Positions 2,405 through 27,214 of a DNA stretch of 64,000 bases are shown piece after piece. Position numbers and translations under genes: made by a program. Each line of letters begins with the position of its first letter. Within the stretch, counting starts at the first letter, position 1. Source of the DNA: an uncultured Acidimicrobiaceae bacterium (GTDB lineage: Bacteria > Actinomycetota > Acidimicrobiia > Acidimicrobiales > RAAP-2); contig CAITPI010000087.1 in assembly GCA_903894295.1 (NCBI GenBank), forward strand, positions 1 through 64,000, written 5' to 3'. The notes beneath the pieces were generated by a model. It saw only the letters and a list, made by a program, of their open reading frames with translations, was not told where the DNA came from and did no database searches.

Positions 2405-3475
2405 TCAGCGCTTGGCGGCTGCCTTCTTGGCCGGAGCCTTCCTGGCGGCTGCCTTCTTGGCCGGAGCCTTCTTGGCGGCGGCACCGCACACCGTCTCCAC
2501 CAGGATGCCGGTCACCTGGTAGGGGTCCATGTTGGCGTTCGGCCGACGGTCCTCGAGCCAGCCCTTCCGGTTCTTGGCCACGGCCCACGGGATGCGGATC
2601 GATGCACCCCGGTCCGAGGTTCCGTAGCTGAACTTTGTGTAGTGGGCGGTCTCGTGCGCGCCGGTCAGGCGGTCGGCGATCCCGACGCCGTAGACGGCGA
2701 TGTGCTCGTCCACCCGGGTCCCGATGGCCTCACAGCCGGCGATGATGGCCTTCCAGCCACCGTCCTCGCGCATGGCCTTGGTGGAGAAGTTGGTGTGGGC
2801 CCCCGCACCGTTCCAGTCACCGAGCACCGGCTTGGGCTCGAGGGTGGCGTAGACGTCGAAGTCCTCGGCGATGCGGAAGAGCAGCCACCGGGCCACCCAC
2901 AGCTGGTCGCTGATCTCGAGCGGCGGGAGCACGCCAACCTGGAACTCCCACTGGCCCATCATGACTTCGGCATTGGTGCCTTCGATGCCGATGCCGGCGT
3001 CCATGCAGGCCCGGGTGTGCTCTTCGACGATCTCCCGTCCGGGCATCTTGTCGCCACCGACGCCGCAGTAGTAGGGACCCTGCGGGGCCGGGTAGCCGAC
3101 GGCCGGCCAGCCGAGCGGGCGGCCGTCCTTGAAGAAGGTGTACTCCTGCTCGATGCCGAACATCGGCTCCTGGTCGGCATACTGCTTGGCGATCCGGGCC
3201 AGCCGGGCACGGGTGTTCGTGGGGTGGGGCCGCATGTTGGGCAGGAGGACCTCGCACATCACCAGTCGGTCTTCGAGGCCGCGCAGGGGATCCGGGCAGG
3301 ACCACACCGGCCGGAGCACGCAGTCCGAGTCGCTGCCCACGGCCTGGTTGGTGCTCGATCCGTCGAAGCCCCAGATGCCGGGCTGCTCGCCGTCGGCAAT
3401 GATCCTGGTCTTGCTGCGGAGGAGCGGCGAGGGCTCGGTTCCGTCGATCCAGATGTACTCAGCTTGGTAAGGCAC
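2405..3475 (-). CDS. glnII: type II (eukaryotic-like) glutamine synthetase with C-terminal Lys/Ala-rich tail
   Basis: PYQAEYIWIDGTEPSPLLRSKTRII, GIWGFDGSSTNQA, GIEQEYTFF, GDWNGAGAHTNFSTKAMR, GASIRIPWAVAKNRKGWLEDRRPNANMDPYQVT; GTG start with GAGGAG upstream. Confidence 0.92.
   Translation of the reverse strand: MPYQAEYIWIDGTEPSPLLRSKTRIIADGEQPGIWGFDGSSTNQAVGSDSDCVLRPVWSCPDPLRGLEDRLVMCEVLLPNMRPHPTNTRARLARIAKQYADQEPMFGIEQEYTFFKDGRPLGWPAVGYPAPQGPYYCGVGGDKMPGREIVEEHTRACMDAGIGIEGTNAEVMMGQWEFQVGVLPPLEISDQLWVARWLLFRIAEDFDVYATLEPKPVLGDWNGAGAHTNFSTKAMREDGGWKAIIAGCEAIGTRVDEHIAVYGVGIADRLTGAHETAHYTKFSYGTSDRGASIRIPWAVAKNRKGWLEDRRPNANMDPYQVTGILVETVCGAAAKKAPAKKAAARKAPAKKAAAKR
2414..2473 (-). repeat. 30-bp direct repeat x2 encoding the AKKAPAKKAA-type tail of GlnII
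   Basis: ggcggctgccttcttggccggagccttc(ct/tt) repeated at 2414-2443 and 2444-2473. Confidence 0.8.
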
Positions 3476-3853
3476 GTGCACTCCTCGGTTGCTTGTCTGA
3501 TCGGACCCGCACTCCTGACGTGACAGGGGTCCCTTTGATGGTGGGAAGTTACCACCGGGGGTTTTCCCGGGCGGCTTCCGGTGGATCACCTCCTGCGCAC
3601 CGGTCCTGATTTCACGGCGCTGAACTGGGGTTTTGGCTCGTGTGAACAGATGATGAACAGGTCGGAACCAGCGACGAATTCCCGGTCGTCACGTCGATGC
3701 GGAAAGACAATGCGGCGAAGGAAGTGCCGGCCGGGCCGGGAGATCGCCCTGACCGGTCGGGGCCGGCGGGGTACCCAAGGCCGGGCCGGGACCATGGTGA
3801 AGTGGCTCTGCGTGGGGTCCGGGCGTGCCGGCACTCCCCGATAGGCTTGACGG

Positions 3854-15554: not shown

Positions 15555-18401
15555 ATGACTACCACCGAACCTGATTTCACAGACTCCGTATCCACCGCTC
15601 CGGCCACCTCCGGAGGCACGAGGCGTGCCCGTCCGGCGGGGGGAACCCGGCCGCTCGTCATTGTCGAGAGCCCGTCCAAGGCCAAGACGATCTCGGGCAT
15701 CCTCGGCTCGAACTATGTGGTGGAGTCCTCCATCGGACACATCCGCGACCTGGCGACCAAGAAGGACCTGCCGGAAGCCATCAAGAAGGAGTCGTGGGCC
15801 GACCTGGCCGTGGACGTCGACAACGGTTTCAAGCCGCAGTACATCGTCTCGCCGGCCAAGAAAGAGCAGGTCCGCAAACTCAAGCGCCTGGCCAAGGAGG
15901 CCGGCGAAGTCTATCTGGCCACCGATGAAGACCGCGAAGGGGAGTCCATCGCCTGGCACCTGAGCCAGGTCCTCGGCCTGCCCGAAGACACGCCCCGGAT
16001 GGTCTTCCACGAGATCACGCCCCAGGCCATCGAGCGGGCGGTGGATGAGTGCCGGACCATCGATTACCACCTGGTCGAGGCTCAGGAAGCCCGCCGGATC
16101 TTCGACCGCATCTACGGCTTCAAGCTGTCCGACGTGATGCGGCGGAAGACCAACGGCCGTTCCGCCGGCCGGGTCCAGAGCGTGGCAACCCGGATGGTGG
16201 TCGACCGGGAGCGGGAGCGCATGGCGTTCCGTTCGGCGTCCTGGTGGGGGATCGACGTCCTGGTGACGGCCGAAGGCGAACAGGCCAAGGCGGCCGAAGC
16301 CGACACGCCACGGAGTTTCCAGGCCGCTCTCGTGGGCATCGACTCCCAGGTGTTGGCCGGAGGCAAGGACTTTGATACCAACGGGCAGCTGACCACCTCG
16401 GCGGTCGTCCTCGACGAAGCCCGGGCCCAGGCTCTGGCCGCCGGTGTCCGCCCCGGAAGTTTCCGGGTCTCGGCCATGACCCACAAGCCCTACCGGCGCT
16501 CGCCCCGGGCTCCGTTCATCACGTCCACCCTGCAGCAGGAGGCGGGGCGCAAACTGCGGTTCAGTTCGAACCGGACGATGCAGGTGGCCCAGCGCCTCTA
16601 TGAAGAGGGTTGGATCACCTACATGCGGACCGACTCCACCACCCTTTCGGACCAGGCCATCTCGGCCGCCCGCAGCCAGGCGGCTGCCCTCTATGGACCC
16701 GAGTATGTTCCGTCCGCCCCCCGTTCCTATGCCCGGAAGGTGAAGAACGCCCAGGAGGCCCACGAGGCGATCCGGCCGGCCGGGGAGAGTTTCCGCACCC
16801 CGGACGAGGCGGCCCGGTCGCTCTCGGGTGACGAGCTGCGGCTCTATGACCTCATCTGGAAGCGCACGGTGGCCTCCCAGATGGCCGACGCCACCGGCAC
16901 CAGCGCCCAGGTTCGCCTGCTCGGAACCTCGGTGGCCGACGGGGCGGAACACCAGCTCGAGTTGAGCGCTTCGGGCACGGTCATCGAGTTCCCGGGATTC
17001 CAACGGGCCTATGTGGAAGGCAGCGACGACCCCGAGGCCGACCTGGCCGACCGGGAAGTGCACCTTCCGCCCATGGCCGAAGGCGACCCGGCCTCGGTGA
17101 GCGAGGTCACCCCGGGTGGCCACGCCACCCAGCCACCGGCCCGCTATACCGAAGCATCGTTGATCAAGGACATGGAGGAGCTCGGCGTGGGTCGCCCCTC
17201 GACCTATGCCGCCATTGTCTCCACCATCGAGGACCGGGGATACGTGTGGAAGAAGGGATCGGCCATGGTGCCCTCCCTGCTGGCCTTCGGTGCGATCCGG
17301 CTGCTCGAGCAGCACTTTGCCGACCTCGTTGACTACGGGCTCACGGCGGCCATGGAGGACGATCTCGACGACATTGCCGGAGGGACCCGGGACCTCGAGG
17401 CCTGGCTGGGCGACTTCTACTTCGGCCCCGACGGCACGGGTGGACTGCGCGACCAGGTGGTGGCCAACCTTGAGCTGATCGACCCTGCCGCCATCAACGG
17501 CATCTCGCTTGGCGTGGCCGAGGACGGCGAAGAGATCGTGGCCCGCTCGGGGAAGTTCGGGCCGTACCTGAAGAAGGGTGAGCAGTCGGTCTCGATCCCC
17601 GAGGACGTCGCACCCGACGAGTTGACCGTCGAGCGGGCGCTGGAGTTGCTGGCCGCCCCGTCCGCCGACCGGGAGCTTGGTATCGACGAGGCCACCGGTC
17701 AGCCGGTCTTCGTCAAGGTCGGGCGGTTCGGACCCTATGTCCAGCTTGGTGAGTTGGTCGAAGGGGAGGAGAAGCCCCGGACGTCGTCCCTGTTTGCCTC
17801 GATGTCGCCGGCCACCCTGACCCTGGACGACGCCCAGAAGTTGCTCTCCATTCCCCGTTTGGTGGGCCACGACCCCGCCACCGGGGCCGAGATCATGGCC
17901 CACAACGGCCGGTTCGGTGCCTACGTGAAGATGGGCACGGACAGCCGCAGCCTGACCAGCGAGGACCAGATCCTCACCGTCACGCTCGACGAGGCTCTGG
18001 CCATCTTCGCCCAGCCGAAGCAGCGGGGCCGGAACGCCAAGGCTCCGCTGCGGGACATGGGCGCCGATCCGGTGACCGGGCTGGCCATGGTGGTGAAGGA
18101 CGGCCGGTTCGGACCGTATGTGACCGACGGTACGACCAATGCATCGCTCCGTCGGGGCGACAGCGTGGAAGAACTGACCCCGGAGCGGGCATCGGACCTC
18201 CTCGCCGAACGTCGGGCCGCCGGTCCGGCCAAGAAGGCCACCAAGAAGAAGGCGGTCGCCAAGAAGACGACTGCCAAAAAGACGACAGCGAAAAAGGCGA
18301 CAGCCAAAAAGACGGCCGCCAGGAAAACGGCGGCCAAGAAGGCTCCGGCCGTGAAGACGGTGGCGGCCGAAGAGTCGCTCCCGCCTGACGACGCCTTCTA
18401 G
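15555..18401 (+). CDS. topA: DNA topoisomerase I with Lys/Ala-rich C-terminal tail
   Basis: PLVIVESPSKAKTISGIL, DEDREGESIAWHL, YMRTDSTTLS active-site Tyr; tail PAKKATKKKAVAKKTTAKKTTAKKATAKKTAARK. Confidence 0.96.
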   Translation: MTTTEPDFTDSVSTAPATSGGTRRARPAGGTRPLVIVESPSKAKTISGILGSNYVVESSIGHIRDLATKKDLPEAIKKESWADLAVDVDNGFKPQYIVSPAKKEQVRKLKRLAKEAGEVYLATDEDREGESIAWHLSQVLGLPEDTPRMVFHEITPQAIERAVDECRTIDYHLVEAQEARRIFDRIYGFKLSDVMRRKTNGRSAGRVQSVATRMVVDRERERMAFRSASWWGIDVLVTAEGEQAKAAEADTPRSFQAALVGIDSQVLAGGKDFDTNGQLTTSAVVLDEARAQALAAGVRPGSFRVSAMTHKPYRRSPRAPFITSTLQQEAGRKLRFSSNRTMQVAQRLYEEGWITYMRTDSTTLSDQAISAARSQAAALYGPEYVPSAPRSYARKVKNAQEAHEAIRPAGESFRTPDEAARSLSGDELRLYDLIWKRTVASQMADATGTSAQVRLLGTSVADGAEHQLELSASGTVIEFPGFQRAYVEGSDDPEADLADREVHLPPMAEGDPASVSEVTPGGHATQPPARYTEASLIKDMEELGVGRPSTYAAIVSTIEDRGYVWKKGSAMVPSLLAFGAIRLLEQHFADLVDYGLTAAMEDDLDDIAGGTRDLEAWLGDFYFGPDGTGGLRDQVVANLELIDPAAINGISLGVAEDGEEIVARSGKFGPYLKKGEQSVSIPEDVAPDELTVERALELLAAPSADRELGIDEATGQPVFVKVGRFGPYVQLGELVEGEEKPRTSSLFASMSPATLTLDDAQKLLSIPRLVGHDPATGAEIMAHNGRFGAYVKMGTDSRSLTSEDQILTVTLDEALAIFAQPKQRGRNAKAPLRDMGADPVTGLAMVVKDGRFGPYVTDGTTNASLRRGDSVEELTPERASDLLAERRAAGPAKKATKKKAVAKKTTAKKTTAKKATAKKTAARKTAAKKAPAVKTVAAEESLPPDDAF

Positions 18402-20388: not shown

Positions 20389-20967
20389 ATGGCCGACCAA
20401 TCGGAGTTCGCCGCACTGGCGATGGAGTACATGTCGGCGCTCTATACGGCGGCCTTGCGCATGACCCGCAACCAGGCCGACGCCGAAGACCTCGTGCAGG
20501 AAACCTACCTGAAGGCCTACCGGTCCTTTGGCGGCTTCGAGGCCGGTACCAACCTGAAAGCGTGGCTGTACCGGATCCTCACCAACACCTACATCAACAC
20601 CTACCGGGCCAGGAAACGCCGCCCCGAACAGGCCGATGTGGAGAACGTCGAAGACCTCTACCTCTACCACCAGTTGGCGGCAGGAACGGCGCCGGGTGTG
20701 GGGCGGAGCGCCGAGGACGAGGTCCTCGACCAGTTCACCGACGACGACGTGAAGGCGGCCATCGAAGCGCTCCCCGACACCTTCCGGATGGCGGTGTTGC
20801 TGTCGGACGTCGAAGGGTTCTCCTACAAGGAGATTGCCGAGATCACCGACGTCCCGATCGGCACCGTGATGAGCCGTCTCCATCGGGGAAGAAAAGCGCT
20901 GCAAAAGGCGTTGATGGACGTGGGCGTGGCCCGGGGGTTGGTTGGTGTCGGCGATCAACAGCAGTGA
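20389..20967 (+). CDS. ECF sigma factor (SigH/SigR/RpoE-like)
   Basis: [99 protein letters not shown]. Confidence 0.92.
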
Positions 20968-20979
20968 CAGGGAGAAGAC

Positions 20980-21285
20980 GTGAGCGAAGAACGCGATGAG
21001 GGTGTGAACCAGGACCGGCCCGGCCCGACCACGTTCGTTGACTGCGACGAGACGATCCGGCGCCTCTATGCCTATCTCGATGGCGAGTTGACCGAGCAAC
21101 GACGGGCCGAGATTGCCCAGCATCTCGACCTCTGTGGCCCCTGTGTGGGTGCCTTTGGTTTCGAAGCCGAACTGCGGGCCGCCATCGCCAACCGCTGCAA
21201 GGACCGGGTGCCGGACTCGTTGGTGGAGCGGGTGGCCGCCGCCTTGCGGCAGGAGTCCGAAGCAGCCGCCGGAGAAGGCTCGTAG
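20980..21285 (+). CDS. zinc-binding anti-sigma factor (RsrA-like, HxxxCxxC)
   Basis: CDETIRRLYAYLDGELTEQRRAEIAQHLDLCGPCVGAF; immediately downstream of ECF sigma. Confidence 0.87.
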   Translation: MSEERDEGVNQDRPGPTTFVDCDETIRRLYAYLDGELTEQRRAEIAQHLDLCGPCVGAFGFEAELRAAIANRCKDRVPDSLVERVAAALRQESEAAAGEGS

Positions 21286-21314: not shown

Positions 21315-22436
21315 GTGGGTGACGAGCGACCCGACGGCAACGGTGCCGTGTCGTGGGAGATGGCGTCCCGGGTGGCCACCTGGGTGGGACTGCGCACCAA
21401 CGTGCCGGCACCGTACCGACCGGACCTCCTCCAGGACGATTTCGACGAACTGACGGCCGAGGCCGAGCATCTGGTGGAAGCGGCTACCGGTCTTCGTTCT
21501 GCCGCCGGCACGGCCCGGGCCCGGGTGGTCGACCGGTCGCAGTGGGTATCGGCCAACATCGCCAGTTTTCAGCGCCTGCTCGGCCCCCAACTTGAACGGC
21601 TGGACCCGTCACGCCTGGTGGGGAACTCATCCCGGAGCGCCCCCTGGACCTCATCGCTGCGAGGCGTGAGCCGGTCGGTGGCCGGGACCCAGATGGGAGT
21701 GGTGCTCGGCTGGCTTTCGACCCGGGTGTTGGGCCAGTACGACCTGCTGCTCACCGAAGAGGCCATCGAGGACCAGGACCTCGTCTACTACGTGGGACCC
21801 AACATCGTGGCCCTGGAGCGGGCCCACGGATTCCCGCCCCGGGAGTTCCGGTTGTGGCTGGCCCTGCACGAGGTGACGCATCGATGCCAGTTCACCGGCA
21901 TCGACTGGATGCGGGAGTACTTCGTCTCGCTGGTCAACGACGGCATCAACTCGCTGGATCCCGACCCGGCCCGGATGGCCGAAGCGCTGAAGCGGACGGC
22001 CGAGATGGTTCTGGCCGGGAAGAACCCGCTCAAGGAGAACGGCATGATCGGCCTGGTGACTTCGGCCTCCCAGCTCGAAGGCATCCAGCGCATCCAGGCC
22101 CTGATGAGTCTGCTCGAAGGTCACGGGGACATCACGATGGACCGGGCCGGAGCGGCCGAGATCCCGAGTGCGGACCGCTTCGGCGAAGTACTGCGCCAGC
22201 GGCGCACGCAGAGCCGGTTCCCGGCCCGGCTGCTTCAACAGCTGCTCGGGTTCGAGGCCAAGATGCGCCAGTACGAAGAGGGTGAGCGTTTCATCACCGC
22301 CGTCGAGGACGAGGCGGGGGCCGGCTTTCTCGACCATGCGTGGCAGGGGCCGGAGTGGCTCCCGACCATCGACGAGATCCGGAACCCCACCTCGTGGGTG
22401 CGTCGGGTGAACGCAGCAAGTGCCCTGGTTGTCTGA
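21315..22436 (+). CDS. zinc-dependent metalloprotease-like protein (DUF2342-type)
   Basis: LWLALHEVTHRCQFTGIDWMREYF HExxH-like motif; conserved neighbour of tilS/hpt in actinobacteria. Confidence 0.82.
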   Translation: MGDERPDGNGAVSWEMASRVATWVGLRTNVPAPYRPDLLQDDFDELTAEAEHLVEAATGLRSAAGTARARVVDRSQWVSANIASFQRLLGPQLERLDPSRLVGNSSRSAPWTSSLRGVSRSVAGTQMGVVLGWLSTRVLGQYDLLLTEEAIEDQDLVYYVGPNIVALERAHGFPPREFRLWLALHEVTHRCQFTGIDWMREYFVSLVNDGINSLDPDPARMAEALKRTAEMVLAGKNPLKENGMIGLVTSASQLEGIQRIQALMSLLEGHGDITMDRAGAAEIPSADRFGEVLRQRRTQSRFPARLLQQLLGFEAKMRQYEEGERFITAVEDEAGAGFLDHAWQGPEWLPTIDEIRNPTSWVRRVNAASALVV

Positions 22437-23379
22437 CCCGGTATTCGCAACGTTGGATCCCGGGGGGCGGGGCGTCACCGGGAAGTCGGACGGCGAGGCC
22501 GGAGTGACCCGGATGGTGGCCGACCTGCTGGCCCGCTGCACCTTCCCGGAAAGGGGCGCACCGTGTCGGGTCGCCGTCTCCGGTGGGGCCGACTCACTCG
22601 CACTGTTGGTCCTGGCGGTGGCTGCCGGGTGTGAAGTCACGGCGCTGCACGTCGACCACGGGCTTCGCCCCGGCTCGGCGGCCGAGGCCGACGTCGTGGC
22701 CGCCGCGGCGGGACGTTTCGGTGCCGACTTCATCTCCCTGAGCATCGACCCCGGGGAGGGGCCCAATCTGGAAGCCCGGGCCCGGGTGGCCCGCAAGGAG
22801 GTACTCGGGCCGGGTGTGGCCACCGGCCACACTGCTGACGACCAGGCCGAGACGGTGTTGATCAACCTGCTGCGCGGCGCGGGGGTGGACGGACTGGCCG
22901 GTATGCGTCGTGGTCCCGAACATCCGTTGCTCGACCTTCGTCGGAGCGAAACGGCCGGCCTCTGCGCCGCCCTCGGACTGCATCCGGTCAACGATCCGAC
23001 CAACACCGACACCCGCTTCGTCCGGGTCCGGATCCGCCATGAACTGTTGCCGTTGTGCGAGGAGATCGCCGGCCGGGATCTGGTGCCCGTCCTCGCCCGA
23101 CAGGCCGATCTGCTGGCTGGCGACGCCGAGGTGCTGGCCGCGGTGGCCGACCTGCTCAACCCGACCGAGGCGGCCCGGCTGGTGGCCGGGCCGGAGACGG
23201 TTGCCCGCCGCAGCGTGCGTCGGTGGCTGACCGGAGACGACGGGTATCCACCGTCGCAGGCGGCGGTGGAACGGGTGCTTGACGTTGCCCGCAAGAGGTT
23301 TCGGGCCACCGAACTGCCGGGCGGACGGCGGGTCTGGCGGTCCGCCGGACAACTCCACCGGTCTGAGCCCGATTCGTGA
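22420..23379 (+). CDS. tilS: tRNA(Ile)-lysidine synthase
   Basis: VAVSGGADSLALLVLAVAAGCEVTALHVDHGLRPGS, TGHTADDQAETVLINLLRGAGVDGLAGM. Confidence 0.92.
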   Translation: MPWLSDPVFATLDPGGRGVTGKSDGEAGVTRMVADLLARCTFPERGAPCRVAVSGGADSLALLVLAVAAGCEVTALHVDHGLRPGSAAEADVVAAAAGRFGADFISLSIDPGEGPNLEARARVARKEVLGPGVATGHTADDQAETVLINLLRGAGVDGLAGMRRGPEHPLLDLRRSETAGLCAALGLHPVNDPTNTDTRFVRVRIRHELLPLCEEIAGRDLVPVLARQADLLAGDAEVLAAVADLLNPTEAARLVAGPETVARRSVRRWLTGDDGYPPSQAAVERVLDVARKRFRATELPGGRRVWRSAGQLHRSEPDS

Positions 23380-24088: not shown

Positions 24089-24658
24089 ATGAGTGTCGAC
24101 ATTCCGAGAATCGAAGCGGCCGTCCGGGAGTTGTTGGCCGCCATTGGCGAGGACCCGGAGCGGGACGGGCTCCTCGAGACGCCCAAGCGGGTCGCCCACA
24201 TGTACGGTGAACTCTTCTCCGGACTGGCCGAAGACCCGGCCGACCACCTCATGGTGACCTTCGAGGCCCACCACGACGAGATGGTGATGGTGCGGGACAT
24301 CCCGTTCACTTCGCTCTGTGAGCACCATCTGGTGCCGTTCATGGGCCGGGCCCACGTGGCCTACATCCCGGGCAACGACGGACGGATCACCGGGTTGTCC
24401 AAGATGGCCCGGCTGGTCGACGGTTTCGCCCGCCGCCTTCAGGTCCAGGAGCGGATGACGGCCCAGATCGCCGACTCCATGGAGAAGGTGCTGGACCCGA
24501 AGGGCGTACTGGTCGTGGTCGAAGCCGAGCACCAGTGCATGTCGATGAGGGGCGTGAAGAAGTCCGGCACGATGACGGTGACCTCGGCCGTGCGGGGCCT
24601 GTTCCGCCAGGATGCAGCAACCCGGGCCGAGGCGATGCAGTTCATCCACGGACGCTGA
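24089..24658 (+). CDS. folE: GTP cyclohydrolase I
   Basis: [54 protein letters not shown]. Confidence 0.95.
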
Positions 24659-24775: not shown

Positions 24776-25606
24776 ATGGCAATCGGGAGTGGGGACCAGC
24801 GGCCACTGGTGATGGGGATTCTGAACGTCACGGAGGACTCGTTCTCCGATGGCGGAAAGTGGTTCACCGTCGAGCGGGCCATCGCCCACGGTCGCGACCT
24901 CATCGCCCAGGGCGCCGATGTCGTTGACGTCGGTGGCGAATCGAGCCGGCCCGGGGCGGTGGCGGTCGACGTCGACGAGGAGATCCGTCGGGTGGTCCCG
25001 GTCATCGAGGCCCTGCACGGCGAGGTCCGACTCTCGGTGGACACCGTGAAGCCCGAGGTGGCGAGGGCGGCAGTGGCCGCCGGCGTCAGCCTGATCAACG
25101 ATGTCTCGGCCACGCTCGGCCCGGTGGCGGCTGACCTTGGGGTGGGGTGGATCGCCATGCACCGTCAGGGCACGCCACAGACCATGCAGGACAACCCCAG
25201 GTACGTAAACGTGGTCCACGAGGTCACCCGCTTCCTTCTGGAACGGGCGAGCGACGCCGCGGACCGGGGCGTGGGCGAGATCTGGATCGATCCGGGCATC
25301 GGCTTTGGGAAGACCGTGGCCCACAACCTGACCCTGCTGGGTCACCTCGACGAACTGGTGGCCCACGGGTGGCCGGTGGCGGTCGGAACCAGTCGCAAGA
25401 TGTTTGTCGGAGTCGCGGGCAGCCGTTCGGAGGAGATCCTCCCGGTGGCTGACCGACTGCCGGGTTCACTGGCCACTGCCACCTGGGCCATGGAGTTGGG
25501 GGCCGGACTCGTACGCGTCCACGACGTGGCGGCTACCCTCCATGCGGCTCGACTGGTTGGCCCCATCCGGAGGGGATCGGAGATGAAGGTGGAGGTAGCG
25601 ACATGA
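24776..25606 (+). CDS. folP: dihydropteroate synthase
   Basis: VMGILNVTEDSFSDGGKW, DVVDVGGESSRPGA, IWIDPGIGFGKTVAHNL. Confidence 0.94.
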   Translation: MAIGSGDQRPLVMGILNVTEDSFSDGGKWFTVERAIAHGRDLIAQGADVVDVGGESSRPGAVAVDVDEEIRRVVPVIEALHGEVRLSVDTVKPEVARAAVAAGVSLINDVSATLGPVAADLGVGWIAMHRQGTPQTMQDNPRYVNVVHEVTRFLLERASDAADRGVGEIWIDPGIGFGKTVAHNLTLLGHLDELVAHGWPVAVGTSRKMFVGVAGSRSEEILPVADRLPGSLATATWAMELGAGLVRVHDVAATLHAARLVGPIRRGSEMKVEVAT

Positions 25607-26337
25607 AGGGCAAGTGGGCGTCGGGGATTCCTCCTCGCAACTTCACCTGGGTGATCGAAGGCAAGCTGGCGATGAGCGAGCGGCCGGGTGGCTTTGCCCC
25701 CAACCACCGCAAGGTGCGTCGTCAGGAGGAGATCATCTGGCTCCAGGTCCAGGGCTTCAACCGGGTGGTGTCGCTCCTCCCGTCCTCTCACAACCTGCAG
25801 GCGTATGACGAACTCTCCATGGCCAGCGTCCACTATCCGGTGCCGGTGTCCGGCGACGTGCGGGCCGTCCTCGTCGATCTCTACCGTGACCTGCAGGTCC
25901 GTCTGGCCAACGGGGAGCGGCTCCTGATCCACCAGGAAGAACTCGGCGACCGGGTGACGGGCGTGGTGGCCGGGTATCTGCTGTGCACCGATGTCCGTGT
26001 TGGCACGGCCCAGCAGGCGGTGACGGTACTCGAGAACCTGACCCGCCATCCGATGGGGGCCGCCGGCCGCGAACTGGTGACCCAGGCAGCCCAGATCCTG
26101 GCCGCCACCAAGGCCAGGTCGGACGAGGTCTCCGAGCCGCCCGAGCCGGCCAGGAAGGCTTCGGCCAGGAAAGCCCCGGCCAAGAAGGTCGCGGGGACCA
26201 AAACCCCGGCCAAAAAGGTTGCGGGGACCAAAACCCCGGCCAAGAAGGTTGCGGCGACCAAGGCTCCGGCCAAGAAGGTTGCGGCCGGAGAGGCTCCGGC
26301 CACCGGACCGACGAAGTCGAAGCCCCGATCGGCATGA
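25603..26337 (+). CDS. DSP/PTP-fold pseudophosphatase-like protein with 10-aa H1-like repeat tail
   Basis: N-term NFTWVIEGKLAMSERPG resembles DSP entry motif; LLIHQEELGDRVTGVVAGYLL matches HC(X5)R(S/T)G with C replaced by Q; tail (PAKKVAGTKT)n. Confidence 0.6.
   Translation: MKGKWASGIPPRNFTWVIEGKLAMSERPGGFAPNHRKVRRQEEIIWLQVQGFNRVVSLLPSSHNLQAYDELSMASVHYPVPVSGDVRAVLVDLYRDLQVRLANGERLLIHQEELGDRVTGVVAGYLLCTDVRVGTAQQAVTVLENLTRHPMGAAGRELVTQAAQILAATKARSDEVSEPPEPARKASARKAPAKKVAGTKTPAKKVAGTKTPAKKVAATKAPAKKVAAGEAPATGPTKSKPRSA
26176..26295 (+). repeat. 30-bp tandem repeat, about 4 copies, encoding PAKKVA(G/A)TK(T/A)
   Basis: Units 26176-26205, 26206-26235, 26236-26265, and a diverged unit 26266-26295. 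Confidence 0.85.
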
Positions 26338-26717
26338 CCAGCCACACGTCGTCGCCGGACCGGATCGAGATCCGGGGCCTCCGTCTGGTGGGAACCCATG
26401 GGGTGCTGGTCGAGGAGAAGGAACGGGCCCAGCCCTTCGAGGTCGACCTTGACCTGGTGGCCGACCTGACGGCGGCGGGTCGTTCCGACCAGCTTTTGGA
26501 CACCGTCGACTACGGGGCGGTGGTGGCCCGGGTGGCCGAACTGGTCGCGGGCGGTCCGTCGCACGAGCTGCTCGAGTCCCTGGCCCGCCAACTCGGCCAG
26601 GAGGTCCTGGCCCTCGACGGACGGATCGAGCAGGTGGTGGTGACCCTGCGCAAGCTCCGGCCGCCGCTCCCCGCCGATCTTGCCTCGGTGGGGGTGCGGG
26701 TCACGAGCGTCCGGTGA
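26334..26717 (+). CDS. folB: dihydroneopterin aldolase
   Basis: RIEIRGLRLVGTHGVLVEEKERAQPFEVDLDL, LLDTVDYGAVVARVAELV. Confidence 0.92.
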   Translation: MTSHTSSPDRIEIRGLRLVGTHGVLVEEKERAQPFEVDLDLVADLTAAGRSDQLLDTVDYGAVVARVAELVAGGPSHELLESLARQLGQEVLALDGRIEQVVVTLRKLRPPLPADLASVGVRVTSVR

Positions 26718-27214
26718 CCCAGACCGCCGGTTCGGAGCCTCTGGTCCGGGCCTTTCTCGGCCTCGGTTCGAACCTGGGCGACCGGCAGGGCTACCTGCGC
26801 CGGGCCGTCGACCAGTTGCGCACGTCCCGGGAGTTTCCGGTCATCGCCGTGTCGAACGTGTACGAGACCGAGCCGATGGGTGGCCCCGACGACCAGGGTG
26901 CCTTCCTGAACCTCGTCGTCGAGGTGGCCGTACCACCCGGTGTCGATCCCTACCGTCTCCTTCGGGAGTGTCACCGCCTGGAAGCGGCGGCCGCCCGCGT
27001 GCGCACCGTGCACTGGGGTCCGAGGACCCTCGACGTCGATGTGGTGTGGATCGACGGCGTGGACCTGGCTGACCCGGCCCTGACCGTGCCCCATCCCCGG
27101 TGGAAGGAGCGCCGGTTCGTGCTGGCGCCGTTGGCCGAACTCGCTCCGGACCTGGTGGATCAGGAAGATCTGCTCCGGGCTGGTGGCGAGGTCTCGAACG
27201 TGGGTACACTCTGA
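26714..27214 (+). CDS. folK: 2-amino-4-hydroxy-6-hydroxymethyldihydropteridine diphosphokinase
   Basis: AFLGLGSNLGDRQGYLRRAVDQL, WGPRTLDVDVVWIDG, PHPRWKERRFVLAPLAELAP. Confidence 0.94.
   Translation: MTQTAGSEPLVRAFLGLGSNLGDRQGYLRRAVDQLRTSREFPVIAVSNVYETEPMGGPDDQGAFLNLVVEVAVPPGVDPYRLLRECHRLEAAAARVRTVHWGPRTLDVDVVWIDGVDLADPALTVPHPRWKERRFVLAPLAELAPDLVDQEDLLRAGGEVSNVGTL

Follow-up and report, generated by a model that had tools for sequence, protein, structure and literature searches.

The open reading frame between folP and folB, hereafter X, appears on balance to encode an ancient, single-copy pseudophosphatase of the dual-specificity phosphatase (DSP)/PTP fold, a binding protein with a housekeeping role that is not confined to folate. 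The window (the whole stretch of 64,000 nucleotides of DNA that was analysed) is part of a 2.68-Mb draft genome (G000), whose nearest named relatives are Acidimicrobiales and Acidimicrobiaceae metagenome-assembled genomes. Gene order in the window is folE-folP-X-folB-folK, with each fol gene confirmed by its own Pfam model. The features of the operon are as follows:

22420..23379, + strand, presumably a tilS-like gene, the upstream neighbour that stays beside X in family f7
24089..24658, + strand, folE (GTP cyclohydrolase I), PF01227 E 1.2e-78
24776..25606, + strand, folP (dihydropteroate synthase), PF00809 E 1.7e-73, ATGA overlap with X
25591..25595, + strand, GGAGG ribosome-binding site of X, within the 3' end of folP, from the sequence
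25603..26337, + strand, X, the pseudophosphatase open reading frame, ATG start, 244 amino acids
26334..26717, + strand, folB (dihydroneopterin aldolase), PF02152 E 1.3e-29, ATGA overlap with X
26714..27214, + strand, folK (HPPK), PF01288 E 7.4e-37

The folP stop and the X start share an ATGA at 25603-25606, and the TGA of X overlaps the folB ATG (ATGA) at 26334-26337. The boundaries that the sequence-only reading had given for X were exact, and the coupling it had described on both sides is present, which supports co-translation. Located in the operon of folP and folB, within an old coenzyme cluster (tilS-hpt-ftsH-fol-pan-nad), X would be made together with them. An ECF sigma factor and a zinc-finger anti-sigma factor (20389-21285), which we take to be a SigR/RsrA-like pair, are encoded ahead of the tilS-hpt-fol-pan-nad cluster, as in many genomes of the class.

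Within X, four features are distinguished:

25603..26097, + strand, conserved DSP-fold domain, residues 1-165, from the AlphaFold2 (AF2) model, Foldseek and a profile against the PDB
25633..25740, + strand, most conserved stretch, residues 11-46, comprising the hairpin PRNFTWVI..LA.SERPGG and the basic loop HRKVRRQEEIIW
25930..25962, + strand, degenerate P-loop HQEELGDRVTG, residues 110-120, with Q111 in the Cys slot and R117 in the Arg slot
26146..26302, + strand, 30-bp tandem repeat of about 4.7-5.2 copies, encoding an Ala/Lys/Pro-rich tail

The DSP-like fold earlier proposed for the N terminus was borne out by structure prediction. An AF2 model of X built from 71 relatives reached a pLDDT of 88.3 and a pTM of 0.86, and its top Foldseek match was human VHZ/DUSP23 (E 1.5e-7; TM 0.65 by query and 0.75 by target), followed by ShufPTP, Tk-PTP and KAP. 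Searched against the PDB with phmmer, the single sequence of X found one DSP (25xa, E 7.2e-7), and a profile of 33 relatives matched 25xa (3.7e-10), VHR/DUSP3 (8e-4) and, more weakly, DUSP19 and DUSP10. When the X family was aligned by hhalign to Cys-containing DSPs of the same class, the match had an E value of 3.9e-6 and a probability of 87%. The search with DSP profiles that the sequence-only reading had called for thus succeeded for the family profile against DSPs of the PDB and failed for single members, the best of which scored about 0.01 against DSPc (E >= 0.01). No Pfam or NCBIfam model matched the core, in agreement with the suggestion that the family was undescribed, and PF04179 (Rit1) gave a chance-level match to the family. 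Both the PTP/DSP fold and sequence homology to DSPs (PF00782 superfamily) were therefore found, and the model indicates that the N-terminal ~165 residues of X are a DSP fold.

Profile-profile alignment set HQEELGDRV of X against HCGAGVGRT of active DSPs of the class, placing H110-Q111 on the H-C pair and R117 on the P-loop Arg, so the register in which the motif had been read (H-Q-EELGD-R-V-T-G, without the nucleophile) was right. The nucleophilic Cys of HCX5R occurs in 0 of 151 distinct X-family sequences, and the conserved columns of the domain contain no Cys at all; its loss, predicted for this protein and now seen in every family member compared, is therefore not due to chance or sequencing error. 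The Cys slot is filled (n = 151) by Q in 76 sequences, R in 22, H in 19, G in 9, A in 7 and M in 4, and more rarely by N (4), E (3), S (2), Y (1) or D (1). The following position (Cys+1, E112) is acidic, E or D, in 148/150 sequences, as is Cys+5 (D116; D or E) in 149/150. Arg fills the P-loop Arg slot (R117) in 113/150 and so is not conserved, and the residue after it is V, L or I in 76/79, replacing Ser/Thr. Position 85, where the candidate general-acid Asp is located, is D or E in 138/150. Given a variable Arg and an acidified loop, it is doubtful that X has the conventional phosphate-binding pocket that would suit the phosphorylated ligand once suggested for it. From these alignments, the Cys-Arg mechanism of X is predicted to be dead and its P-loop to be rebuilt, more than mutated.

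Comparison with known proteins places these changes in context. VHZ/DUSP23 (PDB 4erc, 2img), the best fold match, has about 20% identity to X over the domain; it has phosphatase activity and its structure was determined with vanadate, whereas X lacks the Cys, varies in the Arg slot and has an acidic P-loop. The closest solved sequence, 25xa ("Dual specificity protein phosphatase family protein"), has W-V-I-E-G-K-L-A and the PGG turn in common with X, but carries a typical HC..G..R-T signature, and its counterpart of the basic loop is six residues shorter. STYX-type pseudophosphatases of eukaryotes have a DSP fold with a replaced nucleophile, and non-catalytic binding has been proposed for them (PMC10211241); STYX itself has Gly for Cys, and one Gly-to-Cys change restores its activity (PMC10211241). 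X resembles STYX in its replaced nucleophile, but is not a protein in which only the Cys has changed and the P-loop is otherwise intact: in X the Arg, too, is no longer conserved and positions Cys+1 and Cys+5 have become acidic, and for this reason a single change should not reactivate it. Reviewed pseudophosphatases are mainly eukaryotic (PMC10211241), and nothing on the X family was found in the open-licence papers searched. Pseudophosphatases are thus a known kind of protein; no library or paper searched described the X family, the rebuilding of its pocket or its spread across a bacterial class, and X would be a bacterial pseudophosphatase kept across a whole class with its active site rebuilt.

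Beyond the class, an even sample of the phylum yielded only a distant sister, confined to one family (f69, loci L232-L247) of another actinobacterial class. The sister and X have LAxAERPGG..HR..RR..E..W and H-x-[DN]-x-x-x-E in common. They differ in that the sister has Cys in 14 of 16 sequences and Trp in the Arg slot (H-[CV]-[DN]-x-x-x-E-W), whereas X never has Cys in that slot, and in that the sister is not adjacent to fol genes, whereas X is mostly in the fol operon. With its P-loop Arg replaced by Trp despite a mostly kept Cys, the sister is itself unlikely to be an ordinary DSP.

The strongest conservation in X falls within residues 11-46, where mean column entropy is 0.85 bits, the lowest in the protein, against 1.98 bits for residues 47-109 and 1.30 bits for the P-loop. 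R36, R39, R40, E43 and W46 are invariant (150-151 sequences), as are W16, G29, G30, N64, Y68 and H110, and the invariant basic loop reads HRxVRR. AF2 confidence is low at residues 31-40 (block mean 64), and a loop that is fixed in sequence yet mobile (R36-R39-R40) looks like a ligand- or partner-binding loop. By analogy with the DSP fold, the basic loop and the P-loop would face each other. We propose that X, unable to use the Cys-Arg mechanism, acts as a non-catalytic PTP-fold binding protein in which the basic loop (R36, R39, R40, E43) would make up one surface together with the former active site, now acidic (H110, E/D112, D/E116), and with N64 and Y68. This predicted surface may accommodate either a partner protein or a small metabolite, whose binding would order the basic loop.

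The same residues bear on the main rival, a new Cys-independent active site, such as that of a metal-dependent hydrolase or transferase, assembled from the Arg loop together with H110, E/D112 and D/E116. The fixed polar set (H110, R36, R39, R40, E43, N64, Y68 and the acidic positions 112 and 116) exceeds what a plain scaffold would need and could equally form a catalytic site; the acidic pair is common to X and the f69 sister, and Rit1 is an example of a DUSP-like domain put to a different chemical use. However, the motif of X occurs in no known enzyme family of Pfam or NCBIfam, and the AF2 model does not show the conserved loop as rigid. We consider such an enzyme unlikely, if less so than the other alternatives.

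The distribution of X is consistent with a housekeeping role. X was found as a single copy in 48/48 good genomes among the nearest relatives and in 106/110 good genomes of a class-wide sample (Acidimicrobiia). In two of the misses (G087, G153) folP lies at the edge of its contig, so that only the other two (G073 and G187, both of family f26) are clear losses; that these two manage without X counts against the housekeeping reading. Streamlined genomes of ~1 Mb (genus g66) have X, and apparent losses among them were discounted: panC is absent too and the drafts are 71-88% complete, which probably means that the assemblies do not include the locus. Same-genus identity is 74% for X, compared with 66% for folP, 62% for folB and 72% for folK; X diverges at the pace of the folate enzymes and is therefore under comparable purifying selection. 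With a PTP fold, a lost catalytic motif and a gene retained by selection, X has the marks of a pseudophosphatase. An active DSP co-conserved with X as its partner was also considered and rejected, as PF00782 (E <= 1e-4) is patchy, occurring in only 19/100 class genomes, which argues against an obligatory active partner.

X is a member of the fol operon, and the order folP-X-folB/folK recurs throughout the class, including the ~1-Mb genomes. The presence of X does not, however, coincide with that of the folate pathway, with exceptions in both directions. In family f7, 11/11 loci (L184-L188, L192-L197) read tilS-X with no fol gene adjoining, the whole fol operon and hpt having gone from between tilS and X. 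Three f7 genomes (G067, G090, G098) have no folE, folB or folK anywhere, which suggests folate auxotrophy; in most others, folB/folK are located elsewhere, without X. The locus of G182 (family f38) reads tilS-hpt-ftsH-X-(DUF2520-like gene)-panC, with fol genes gone from both sides of X and folK absent from the genome, so that at least four genomes with X lack folK (G067, G090, G098 and G182). In G111, a 1.1-Mb genome of genus g66, the order is tilS-hpt-ftsH-X-panC. Since relatives in f38 and g66 still have folP-X-folB/folK, f7, G182 and G111 represent three separate removals of the fol genes from around X. Conversely, family f26 (L198 and L199, in G187 and G073) has tilS-hpt-folE-folP-folB-folK, where folP and folB leave no space for X between them.

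Because fol genes go with X kept, and vice versa, X is unlikely, as far as gene content can tell, to act in de novo folate synthesis alone, and the dedicated folate role that X's position had implied in the sequence-only reading was not supported by these comparisons. Having been kept when the vitamin-B9 cluster was deleted, X probably fulfils an important function of its own. It may still bind folates or pterins in salvage. A conserved operon alone can mislead: "in the folate operon" is true for most of the class and is still apparently the wrong clue, and it is natural deletions that separate X from the pathway of its neighbours.

Pterin binding is the next rival, in the form of a folate accessory that binds pterin or dihydroneopterin phosphate and channels it or regulates FolP/FolB. 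The stop-start overlaps with folP and folB and the class-wide gene order argue for it, and the translational coupling seen in most of the class would be expected of a folate role, which counts against a role of X's own. To our knowledge, the dihydroneopterin-phosphate dephosphorylation step commonly goes without a dedicated gene, and FolB and FolP often hold pterins through acidic residues. Against these points, X is intact in the four genomes without folK, the relocated fol genes of f7 left X behind, f26 has no X, and the f69 sister is outside fol loci; we judge a folate accessory improbable.

A passenger with a regulatory role, such as an FtsH adaptor or a folP-folB translational-coupling spacer, is considerably less probable again. 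G111 and G182 do retain hpt-ftsH upstream and panC downstream of X, but the window has no ftsH between hpt and folE, the f7 locus lacks hpt and has X directly after tilS, and a spacer would not hold Arg and His residues invariant. An ordinary active DSP, its nucleophile missed by misalignment or local mutation, can for practical purposes be dismissed despite the clear DSP homology of X and the Cys at the aligned place in 14/16 f69 sisters, since 151 X sequences have no Cys in the slot, the Arg slot is variable, Ser/Thr is replaced, and even the f69 sister lacks the Arg (H-C-D-x-x-x-E-W).

Returning to the reading of X as a binding protein, we suggest tentatively that the PTP pocket of a class-defining protein may have been rebuilt, through the HRxVRR loop and the acidic P-loop, to give a new site, for ligand binding or for catalysis, that serves a core process. 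If so, the rebuilt pocket has been kept even in 1-Mb genomes and after the loss of folate synthesis.

Two further features of the surrounding genes were observed. At several f7 loci, a FAD-dependent oxidase-like gene is found immediately 3' of X. Two HPPK genes per genome are present in G061, G066, G077, G112, G115, G160 and others (families f30 and f35), one adjoining X and the other elsewhere; in G061 the second is beside folB and folE.

The 30-bp repeat noted earlier at the C terminus of X is present and encodes PAKKVAGTKT twice, followed by two diverged units. Same-genus relatives of X end without the repeat, and in other species the X proteins end in low-complexity tails that bear no relation to it, some of them short and others reaching about 370 residues. 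The tail was considered as a nucleic-acid-binding module and rejected, as its HC2/histone-H1 matches reflect composition and the tails of relatives are short or unrelated. Similar Ala/Lys/Pro-rich repetitive C-terminal tails are present in the window on topoisomerase I (15555-18401, + strand) and glutamine synthetase (2405-3589, - strand), which indicates that unrelated proteins of this genome gained like low-complexity tails. Absent from relatives and matched by these two proteins, the tail of X is thus incidental, and on comparison of the sequences it appears to be a species-specific decoration.
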